NCBI RefSeq assembly: GCF_003346815.1
Contig: NZ_CP031217.1
Span: 2,542,001-2,606,000, forward strand
Source of the DNA: Halarcobacter bivalviorum
GTDB taxonomy: Bacteria > Campylobacterota > Campylobacteria > Campylobacterales > Arcobacteraceae
DNA length: 64,000 nucleotides
Direction of reading: 5' to 3'
The translations under genes and the position numbers were made by a program. Of the stretch, positions 5,150 to 35,265 are shown in pieces (position 1 is the stretch's first letter; each line of letters opens with the position of its first letter). Below the pieces are notes generated by a model. The model saw nothing but the letters and a program-made list of their open reading frames with translations. It was not told the DNA's origin and did not search any database.

Positions 5150-6675
5150 TATTTAGCTCCTTCAATTGAGTTTCTATTTAATATTTCAACTCTTGTATTA
5201 TCTTCTAAAGCTTTAATTTTCATAATCTCAACTAGATGATTTGCTGATTTCTCAACTGGACCTAAAATAGGTTTTGGATAAACACCTAAGATTAGAACTA
5301 AAGCAACAAGTGGAATAAGAGCACTTAACTCTCTTTTGTTTAAATCTTTTAACTCTTTGTTTTTCTCATTTTTAATAGGACCAAAGAAAACTTTTTTATA
5401 CATTGTTAACATATAAATTGCCCCAAAAATAATAGTAAGACCTGCAATAAAAGTTAAAGAAGCACTTACTTTAAAGAAACCAAGGAGTGATAAAAACTCT
5501 CCTACAAAACCTATTGTTAGAGGTAAACCAATTGAAGCCATAAGCATAATGGCAAAAATTGTTGCATATTTTGGCATTATAGAAGCTATTCCTCCATAAT
5601 CTTTTATCATCTTAGTATGTGTTCTATCATAAACCACTCCAACTAACATAAACAGAGCCCCAGATACAATACCATGTGAAATCATAAGAAAAATTGCTCC
5701 ACCAATTCCTTCAACATTTAGTGCAAAAATACCTAAAATAATCACACCCATATGAGATACAGAAGAGTATGCAATAACTTGTTTCATATCCTCTTGAGCA
5801 TAAGCGACCATTGCTGTATAAATAATCGCAATAAGAGCTAAAATAGCCATAGGAATTGTAAAATAAACACTTGCATCAGGAAATAGTGGTAAAGAGAATC
5901 TCACAAAACCATAAGTTCCCATTTTAAGTAGAACTGCTGCAAGTATTACAGAACCAATTGTTGGTGCTTGTCCATGGGCATATGGAAGCCAAGTATGAAA
6001 GGGAAACATTGGAACTTTAACAGCAAAACCACAAAAGAATGCAATAAATAACCAAAACTGCATATCAAAAGGAAGAATCATCATATTCCAATCTTGTAAA
6101 CTAAAACTATAAGTTCCTGTTGTTATATAATATACATACCCTAAATAAAGCATTCCCACAAGCATAATTAAAGAACCTAAGAAAGTATATAAAAAGAATT
6201 TAACAGAAGCATAGATTCTTAAACTTCCTCCCCATGCTCCAATAATATAAAGCATAGGTACTAATGATAATTCCCAGAAAACATAGAAAATAATTGCATC
6301 AAGTGCAAGGAAAACTCCAACCATAGTCATTTCTAAAAATAGTATAGTAATAATTAGATTTTTTAAATCTCTTTTTTCACTAAGACCTATAATAGAAATC
6401 ATTGTCATAAAAGTTGTCATGATCACTAAAAATAGTGAAATTCCATCAACTCCAACATGATAGTTTATCCCATATGCACTAATTATAGGAATTATATGAG
6501 TAAACTGCATTTGAGCTTCATTTACATCAAAATTTATCCATAATAGTAAAGAGAGAACAAACTGCATAGAAGTTACAATAATCCCATAAGCTTTAATTGA
6601 GTTCTCTTTTACAATAAACCCTATTAATGCTGCAAATGCTGGGAAAAATATTAATATTGTTAAAATATATTCCAT
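5149..6675 (-). CDS. nuoM: Complex I subunit M (antiporter-like)
   Basis: 508 aa, about 14 membrane segments. Family landmarks are the glutamate in FYVFWELSLVPMLYI (E135), the lysine in FAVKVPMFPFHTWLPYAHGQAPT (K220) and a second lysine region around QEDMKQVIAYSSVSHMG. These residues line the proton channel in studied complexes. The gene sits between nuoL and nuoN with no spacing. Nothing is missing and length is normal. It forms part of the membrane arm that couples quinone reduction to proton export. Confidence 0.97.
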   Translation of the reverse strand: MEYILTILIFFPAFAALIGFIVKENSIKAYGIIVTSMQFVLSLLLWINFDVNEAQMQFTHIIPIISAYGINYHVGVDGISLFLVIMTTFMTMISIIGLSEKRDLKNLIITILFLEMTMVGVFLALDAIIFYVFWELSLVPMLYIIGAWGGSLRIYASVKFFLYTFLGSLIMLVGMLYLGYVYYITTGTYSFSLQDWNMMILPFDMQFWLFIAFFCGFAVKVPMFPFHTWLPYAHGQAPTIGSVILAAVLLKMGTYGFVRFSLPLFPDASVYFTIPMAILALIAIIYTAMVAYAQEDMKQVIAYSSVSHMGVIILGIFALNVEGIGGAIFLMISHGIVSGALFMLVGVVYDRTHTKMIKDYGGIASIMPKYATIFAIMLMASIGLPLTIGFVGEFLSLLGFFKVSASLTFIAGLTIIFGAIYMLTMYKKVFFGPIKNEKNKELKDLNKRELSALIPLVALVLILGVYPKPILGPVEKSANHLVEIMKIKALEDNTRVEILNRNSIEGAK

Positions 6676-33130: not shown

Positions 33131-33193
33131 AAAATATCCTTGCTTTAAAATATATTAATTTCTAATATAAAGTATTCCATAATATCAATTTGT

Positions 33194-33199
33194 TATAAT
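33194..33199 (+). promoter_or_regulatory. Consensus -10 element for the RNA upstream of mnmG
   Basis: TATAAT preceded by TTTGT; transcription would begin near 33206. No good -35 is visible, which is usual for sigma-70 promoters in Campylobacterota. Confidence 0.55.
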
Positions 33200-33205
33200 A
33201 CCGAA

Positions 33206-33378
33206 AATTTATTAATGTAAATCTTTTAGATAAGTGGAAGAAAACATTTATCTAAGAGATTTCATACATTCAATAAGAGTAATAAGTTACTCTTCTTAGA
33301 GTCTGCTTCTTTAAAGGTTAGTTTATTTCCTTTTAAAAGAAGTCTAAAAAATAAAGTCCTTTATCAAGGACTATTTTT
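33206..33378 (+). ncRNA. Structured RNA candidate upstream of mnmG (small RNA or leader)
   Basis: About 170 nt between a TATAAT box and a terminator hairpin, with no ORF of note. Three features fold by eye. First, a long hairpin pairs 33209-33233 with 33248-33276: a 15-bp core with one G-U pair, a 3-nt bulge, 5 bp, a 1-nt bulge and 5 bp, and a 14-nt loop GUGGAAGAAAACAU. Second, AAGAGTAA-TAAG-TTACTCTT (33275-33294). Third, CTTCTTTAAAGG with CCTTTTAAAAGAAG (33306-33342). An alternative fold closes the molecule end to end (208-213 with 350-355; 224-230 with 343-349; 251-257 with 294-300), which is 6S-RNA-like in outline. Identity is not established. Confidence 0.5.
33355..33378 (+). terminator. 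Intrinsic terminator between the RNA candidate and mnmG
   Basis: AGTCCTT-TATC-AAGGACT is a perfect 7-bp stem followed by ATTTTT. It ends 12 bases before the mnmG start and just before its AAGGA ribosome site, so it either ends a small RNA or acts as an attenuator for mnmG. Confidence 0.65.
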
Positions 33379-33390
33379 AAGGAAAATAAT

Positions 33391-35265
33391 ATGTATGATG
33401 TAATAGTCGTAGGTGGAGGTCATGCTGGAATTGAAGCTTCATTAGCAAGTGCTAGAATGGGTAAAAAAACTCTTCTAATAACTATGCTTGTTGAGCAAAT
33501 TGGAGCAGCAAGTTGTAATCCAGCAATTGGAGGACTTGCAAAAGGTCACCTAGTAAGAGAGATTGATGCCCTTGGTGGAGAGATGGGTCTTTGCACAGAT
33601 GCTACAGGTATTCAATTTAGAGTTTTAAATGCTTCAAAAGGTGCTGCTGTTCAAGGAAGTAGAGCCCAAATTGATATGGATAAATATAGAGAGTATATGA
33701 GAGAAGTTTGTCATAACACTCCTAATTTAGAAGTTTATCAAGATGAAGTATCAGCTTTATTAGTGAAAGATGATAATGAAGTATATGGAGTAAAAACAAA
33801 ACTGGGAGAAGAGTTTCATTCAAAAAAAGTAATCCTTACAACTGGTACTTTTATGAGGGGACTTATTCACATTGGAGAGAATACTTATGATGCAGGAAGA
33901 GCATGGGAACTACCCTCTTCAACACTATCTATCCAATTAAAAGAGTTAGGGCTAAATGTAGGAAGATTAAAAACAGGAACTCCTGCTAGATTAGATGCAA
34001 GTAGTATTGATTTTTCTGTAATGGAAGAGCATGGTGGAGATGAAAAACCTATGCCTTTCTCTTTTAGAACAGATAAAGAGAATTTTAATCCTACACAATT
34101 TCCTTGTTTTATCACATATACAAATACAGGAACACATGATACTATTACTGGTAACTTCCACCGTGCACCTATGTTTACAGGTCAAATTGAAGGAAGAGGG
34201 CCAAGATATTGTCCAAGTATTGAAGATAAAGTAAATAGATTTGCAGAAAGAGATAGACACCAACTATTTTTAGAACCACAAACTGCAATGAAAACAGAGT
34301 ATTATATCAATGGATTATCTACATCTCTTCCAATTGATGTTCAAAAACAGATGATTCACTCTATTGAGGGATTAGAAAATGCAAAAGTTATTAGATATGG
34401 ATATGCAATTGAATATGATTATGTTGACCCAACAGAATTAAAACATACATTAGAGACAAAAAAAATAAAAAACCTTTATAATGCTGGTCAAATTAATGCA
34501 ACAACTGGTTATGAAGAAGCTGGTGCACAAGGATTAATGGCTGGTATCAATGCTTGTTTAGCAATTGATGGAAAAGAACCTTTCGTTCTTAGAAGAGATG
34601 AGGCCTATATAGGAGTTTTAATTGATGATTTAGTTACAAAAGGAACTAATGAACCATATAGAATGTTTACTTCAAGAGCTGAATACAGACTACTTCTAAG
34701 AGAAGAGAGTGCTGATTTAAGATTATCTCCTTATGGACATCAACTTGGGCTAATCAATGACGAACAATTACAAAAAGTTGAACATAAAAGAAAAGTAATC
34801 AATGAAGCTGTAGAACTTATGGCAGAAGAGTGGTTTACTTCTAAGAAAGAGAACCTTGAATTATTAGAAGAACTTGGTGAAGATAAAATCAAAGATAGAG
34901 CAAAACTTATTGATATTGTAGGTAGAAATACAGTTACTATAGAAAAACTTGATAGATTAGTACCTTCATTAAAAGATACAGATAACTATTTAAAAGAGCA
35001 AATCATCATTGAAGCAAAATATTATAGATATGTTGATAAGCAGAAAAAACAAATAGAAAAAATGAAAAAAATGATTGAATTAAAAATTCCAGAAAACTTT
35101 GATTTTAAATCAATTCCTGGACTTTCAAATGAGGTAGTTGAAAAGCTTGAAACATTTAACCCACCTACACTATTCAATGCTAGTGAAATTTCGGGTGTAA
35201 CACCTGCTGCACTTGATATTATTCACATGTACATAAATTTAAGGTACAAAACACAAAATAAGTAA
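33391..35265 (+). CDS. mnmG: tRNA uridine-5-carboxymethylaminomethyl modification enzyme MnmG
   Basis: 624 aa FAD protein. Rossmann motif [12 protein letters not shown] at the N-terminus; [67 protein letters not shown], and the C-terminal [12 protein letters not shown] with [10 protein letters not shown]. With MnmE it builds the wobble-uridine cmnm5 group. AAGGAAAAT precedes the ATG. Immediately upstream lies a terminator hairpin and structured RNA candidate, so expression may depend on readthrough or on a promoter within that region. Confidence 0.98.

Follow-up and report, generated by a model that had tools for sequence, protein, structure and literature searches.

The leader of mnmG in Halarcobacter bivalviorum is a genuinely structured region, but it is made up of two evolutionarily independent elements and not of one RNA: a hairpin found in front of mnmG (hairpin A) and one of the 12 genomic copies of a dispersed element (element B) that ends in the Shine-Dalgarno sequence of the gene behind it. 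Element B is a strongly covarying RNA family that is absent from Rfam 15; of the 104 Arcobacteraceae genomes, 77 contain it. Unless it is among the unnamed Arcobacter sp. L regions of PMC6429828, it is previously undescribed. The explanation that we favour, with about as much doubt as confidence, is that B is a spreading cis-acting RNA whose two-state Shine-Dalgarno hairpin tunes the translation of the next gene, and that hairpin A serves as a recognition hairpin.

The window, that is, the whole stretch of 64,000 nucleotides that was analysed, corresponds to C1:2542001-2606000 of a 2.68 Mb genome; positions given below are those of the window, whose features lie on the plus strand unless otherwise stated. 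The region studied sits between ribE (minus strand, start 33130) and mnmG, also called gidA (33391..35265; PF01134, E 6.9e-165), and is free of ORFs, as the preliminary description had stated. The -10 box noticed there was confirmed and extended: TATAAT (33194-33199) is preceded, one base upstream, by TG, and the resulting extended -10 promoter box TGTTATAAT (33191..33199) recurs upstream of mnmG in relatives. The mnmG mRNA would therefore start just 3' of this box and carry both hairpin A and element B as cis-acting structures. The segment 33201-33381 folds at -50.2 kcal/mol, compared with -27.1 +/- 3.5 for shuffled sequences (z = -6.7), and a BLAST comparison with the 16 genomes of the genus splits it into a first part that matches upstream of mnmG and a second part, the 3' two thirds, that matches many genomic places. 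A conserved structured mnmG leader with its own promoter stands, and its stems are kept among relatives with compensatory changes, contrary to the refuting outcome (loss of the stems in relatives) named in the preliminary description; the 6S-like alternative fold that would bring the 5' and 3' ends together found no support, the conserved helices being local hairpins. Behind the mnmG -10 box several genera have a stretch close to GTTAAGAAGCTAATTTTAAC, whether or not hairpin A is present (L064-L066, L068, L070, L072, L073, L075 and L076; degenerate at 33200-33215 of the window), and this initial transcribed stretch may be an operator or a leader element.

Hairpin A (33219..33262), delimited by a conserved block, by paired variation in its outer part and by the minimum free energy fold, consists of a stem of 18 consecutive pairs, including two G-U pairs, and an 8-nt loop, GAAGAAAA; the AU-rich hairpin reported earlier is thus present, not with the 25 bp and 14-nt loop then read. 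Its invariant core of 28 nt, TAGATAAGTGGAAGAAAACATTTATCTA (33227-33254), was searched for in 104 family genomes, allowing at most 3 mismatches, and occurs once per genome in 28 of them, belonging to 6 genera, exactly in 27 and with a single change in one; no copy with two or three changes was found, and the other 76 genomes hold nothing within 3 mismatches. All 28 carriers have the hairpin upstream of mnmG, at a core-to-ATG distance of 25 to 297 nt, and in a sample of 397 genomes of the class those from other families all lack it. At one locus (L059, genome G084) the core lies far from the mnmG start (listed up to 297 nt), apparently through an unexplained insert. Conservation drops sharply at both ends of the 18-bp stem, and where the outer pairs vary the pairing is kept (pair 4 from T-A to C-G or T-G, pair 2 from C-G to T-G or T-A). 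For comparison, of the 28-nt segments within 120 nt close to the mnmG start, the most conserved one has 20 invariant columns in the carrier genomes. Among family members without A, about half of whose loci could be parsed, the leaders read share the promoter and, in many, the initial transcribed stretch GTTAAGAAGCTAATTTTAAC, with no recognisable A. This invariant-or-absent pattern suggests, as far as sequence conservation can tell, a protein or RNA partner specific for both sequence and shape; hairpin A would then be a recognition hairpin exclusive to mnmG, kept letter for letter or missing because its partner would read the two together. Such an invariant hairpin offers a clean target for finding an RNA-binding partner in Campylobacterota. 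A conserved peptide-coding stretch was rejected, because the block is invariant at third codon positions as well, and no match to a phage or plasmid site was obtained. Hairpin A resembles difH of Arcobacter butzleri in being a single-copy intergenic imperfect palindrome; it was rejected as a dif site, since its sequence differs from that of difH and it always lies at mnmG, whereas difH lies near the terminus (PMC2731167, Table 2).

Element B occupies 33274..33383 and scores 94.7 bits with covariance model R1, which has 114 positions and was built from 17 copies. By this model, all 16 genomes of the genus carry B, with 4-25 copies in every relative of the own genome, and the 77 positive family genomes represent 15 of 20 genera. 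In the own genome the copies precede mnmG, a P-II gene, hypC, dnaJ-type, nifU-type, D-Ala-D-Ala ligase and sucC-type genes, among others. A start codon on the same strand, counted if its ORF had at least 60 codons, follows 3-13 nt past the element in 98 of 111 copies (78 of 85 within the genus and 20 of the 26 others, which come almost entirely from other genera), compared with 8-10% at positions chosen randomly in these loci. The AAGGA with which B ends throughout the family is therefore the Shine-Dalgarno sequence, which for mnmG lies at 33379..33383. A same-strand stop codon is found within 60 nt upstream in 57 of the 85 genus copies, so that most copies appear to separate two genes of a probable operon; that of mnmG in the window follows no such stop codon and sits in a promoter-proximal leader. 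The genes behind B fall into 56 groups for 78 copies, 17 of these groups having copies in more than one species, and the glnB and ispH copies are also present in other genera. Searches of GenBank-type collections for carriage of B by plasmids or phages returned no match. Three contigs (L259 and L266, labelled Helicobacter pylori PMSS1 MAG, and L264, a Desulfosporosinus MAG) carry B of the Arcobacter type and are probably misbinned or misnamed. With Rfam 15, the leader gave nothing at the gathering score and chance-level matches only at E up to 10, and in 18 B loci and 9 loci of its first module the element was unmatched even at permissive E-values.

The element is composed of two modules. Module I comprises helix H1 (AAGAGTAA/TTACTCTT, 33275..33294), a conserved CUUUAG..UUUG strand and helix H2 (GCTTCTTTAA...TTAAAAGAAGT, 33305..33343, interrupted in the window copy), and module II is a hairpin that ends in the Shine-Dalgarno sequence and can be drawn in two ways, as P3 (here AGTCCTT/AAGGACT, 33355..33372) or as its alternative P4 (33359..33383). 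Besides hairpin A, three further hairpins were found where two had been counted. Covariation was tested in 67 copies aligned with MAFFT and not fitted to the covariance model. In H1 all 7 model pairs show two-sided changes and 95.3% of the cells are paired; two-sided changes affect 11 of the 14 pairs of H2, and 92.7% of the P3 cells are paired. Taken together, H1, H2 and P3 have 93.3% of their cells paired (73.9 +/- 0.6 after shuffling); two-sided changes number 354, against 105 in shuffled alignments, and the covariation score is 0.550 against 0.176, structures slid along the alignment reaching at most 0.182. P4 is itself paired in 88.6% of cells (74.4 +/- 1.0 shuffled), with a score of 0.300 against 0.097. 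Since P4 uses the P3 loop and the Shine-Dalgarno tail, it excludes P3. As an independent test, a pattern that fixes only GTCCC, GGGAC and AAGGA gave about 100 matches in 16 genomes and none in the reversed control. Set in the P4 register, the free letters of the 78 distinct ones show 87.1% Watson-Crick complementarity, compared with 59.7 +/- 1.8 for shuffled letters. As regards a translational switch, the family thus holds two mutually exclusive covarying helices, one of which buries the Shine-Dalgarno sequence. Helix P1, which RNAalifold proposed between CUUUAG and the Shine-Dalgarno sequence, was rejected, as it shows no two-sided change and no covariation. In a sub-family (L024, L327, L334, L347) the CUUUAG box and H2 have an additional small hairpin between them, TTTCTCAAAGAGAG..., frequently with GCACAAGG.

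On these grounds the following mechanism can be proposed. In the P3 state (GUCCC:GGGAC) AAGGA would be free, and in the P4 state the P3 loop would pair with the tail and AAGGA would be buried. With module II taken in isolation, P3 and P4 are predicted to differ little in energy, with a median of 2.2 kcal/mol in favour of P3 and P4 favoured in 14 of 62 cases, so that B could set, and perhaps switch, the translation of the following gene. At ispH in the own genome, module II also occurs by itself, with P4 arms and no U-tract. The family, its position, the covariation of H1, H2, P3 and P4 and the mutual exclusion of the last two through shared bases are established; that the switch operates in cells we infer from sequence, and it might be biased by module I or by the translation of the gene ahead of B. 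Against such a switch, the downstream genes are functionally diverse and fit no single regulon, P4 is not the predicted stable state in most copies, P1, which would link module I to the Shine-Dalgarno sequence, shows no covariation, and the palindromic arms could alternatively result from a DNA mechanism. The copy in the window is atypical of the family, with P4 reduced to about 4 pairs (CCTT/AAGG) and P3 lengthened to AGTCCTT/AAGGACT with further outer A-U pairs. It favours P3 in the energy predictions (-8.9 kcal/mol, versus -2.8 for P4), and, with P4 nearly lost and P3 reinforced, it is therefore predicted to hold the mnmG Shine-Dalgarno sequence mostly open; as P4 is nearly absent, no switch is claimed for mnmG here. 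That Shine-Dalgarno hairpins might be a feature of genes in general was rejected, as the window yielded only one weak case.

The terminator of the preliminary description is the P3/P4 module of B. The GTCC..GGAC stem with its T-tract is indeed terminator-like in the window copy, where P3 is strong, and in the family it is a Shine-Dalgarno hairpin, the combination of a GC stem and a U-tract not being conserved. It is unlikely that B acts as a transcription attenuator, with P3 and the T-tract as terminator and the structure upstream of them controlling whether transcription continues into mnmG. Unrelated terminator-like hairpins do occur just 5' of the Shine-Dalgarno sequence in some mnmG leaders that lack B (L055, L056), which would suit such a device; many tails, however, are of the type AAAATTTAAGGA or ATCAAAAAAGGA, without a U-tract, and retain complementarity to the P3 loop, and many copies lie within apparent operons of housekeeping genes. 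The tail of the family is, to judge from these sequences, selected for complementarity to the P3 loop and not for U's, and because the U-tract is not conserved across copies, attenuation of mnmG, suggested earlier, is not supported as a conserved mechanism. It is even harder to credit a small RNA such as 6S, produced between about 33206 and 33379, which we regard as the least probable of the readings. Promoter and terminator-like ends would suit it, and so would the invariance of the loop and arms of hairpin A, as is possible for a trans-acting RNA; yet A stands anywhere from 25 to 297 nt ahead of mnmG, in several relatives with no terminator in between, and Rfam offers no match. The proposal of 6S RNA in particular was rejected, since its covariance model (RF00013) finds nothing in the own genome, dozens of genes have a copy of B ahead of them, and the region lacks the 6S architecture of one RNA gene whose long helix encloses a central bubble. 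Sub-threshold RF00013 matches lie away from mnmG in relatives (L350 in G011, L352 in G001 and L353 in G008), and these are possible divergent 6S genes of the group. Hardly more probable is that B represents a true riboswitch class which spread to many genes, with module I as its ligand-binding aptamer: a conserved single-stranded CUUUAG..UUUG lies beside covarying helices and ahead of a two-state Shine-Dalgarno hairpin, and tandem copies exist, but the 56 groups of downstream genes share no common pathway, P1 is unsupported, and module I occurs without module II in other families.

The main rival, which we consider a serious though less probable reading, is that B belongs with interspersed repeats such as BOX, RUP or REP and is selfish or neutral: it would spread by transposition and persist wherever the operon takes no harm, its structure would serve mobilisation, and a Shine-Dalgarno sequence that it carries or targets would make it tolerable between genes. 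It draws on the dispersal and variable copy number of B, the diversity of the genes downstream and the differences in presence at the same gene between sister species, as well as on tandem, partial and decayed copies. Within the genus, ispH is preceded by a full B (G010, G012), a tandem B (G009), module II alone (own genome, G008), H1 with module II (G005), short empty gaps (G001, G004, G006) or decayed-looking remnants (G014, G015, G003), and mnmG by a full B in the own genome, G010 and G003, by module II only in G008 and by none in G009, G014 and G015. Two or three copies can stand in direct tandem before one gene (L021 1432-1622; G003:C1:1061399-1061740). Module I without module II is multicopy, at low scores, in other families of the order and is also found in IMG/VR viral contigs, with several copies between a stop codon and a Shine-Dalgarno sequence, which again speaks for a mobile repeat. 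In other families of the order, head-to-head H1-CTTTAG half-units, CTAAAGTCCCCA..GTGGGGTACCCCATTTATGGGGACTTTAG, resemble composite palindromic repeats (L204, L229-L231, L275, L280), and in Sulfurospirillum cavolei a copy of module I (L248, about 5173-5222) adjoins, in antisense, an apparent 23S rRNA 3' end. Against a merely tolerated repeat stand the strict orientation and position of B, the maintenance of both mutually exclusive hairpins by compensatory changes and its recurrence at the same gene across genera. An origin by the REP/RAYT route was rejected, as a cognate Y1 transposase (PF01797) is absent from the own genome and most family genomes (it is present in 36 of 104). Comparison by eye of the ispH and mnmG sites in divergent relatives, with a MITE in mind, revealed no target-site duplication. 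A tolerated repeat, in short, explains the spread and the gene diversity but not the retention of both states, and it does not exclude the switch. One might also imagine, more speculatively and with correspondingly little confidence, a transposable cis-regulatory RNA that inserts between a start codon and the gene upstream, brings its own Shine-Dalgarno sequence in a two-state hairpin and so rewires the translation of many genes to one shared control input. If B works as a tuner of translation, as we favour, the spread of a repeat would be a route for the evolution of translation regulation.

By mechanism, the nearest known systems are translational riboswitch platforms and RNA thermometers such as ROSE and fourU, in which alternative hairpins expose or bury the Shine-Dalgarno sequence, as predicted for B; B differs from them in being dispersed and variably present, with no shared downstream pathway and no Rfam match. 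REP, BIME and REPIN sequences, associated with RAYT transposases, are likewise intergenic palindromic repeats with tandem and inverted arrangements, as seen in some of the genomes studied here, whereas orientation and position of B are fixed and no Y1 transposase occurs in the own and most family genomes. Structured intergenic candidates, several of them unnamed, were reported in Arcobacter sp. L (Stav et al., 2019; PMC6429828); they share with B a structured and intergenic nature, and the main-text passages compared describe no multicopy Shine-Dalgarno element, though B may have been sighted among the unnamed regions. Elsewhere in the literature no earlier description of B was found. By lifestyle, the nearest kind is that of BOX, RUP and SPRITE in Streptococcus pneumoniae, which are shorter than 200 bp, dispersed, transcribed, strongly structured, in some cases modular and located in or around operons, with no over-represented functional class among the neighbouring genes and an enrichment between convergent genes (PMC3049150). 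Like them, B is a short, dispersed, structured repeat with diverse neighbours; unlike them, it nearly always ends at the Shine-Dalgarno sequence of a same-strand gene and has covarying alternative hairpins, and it thereby links two classes of element, interspersed repeats and Shine-Dalgarno switches, that are usually kept apart.
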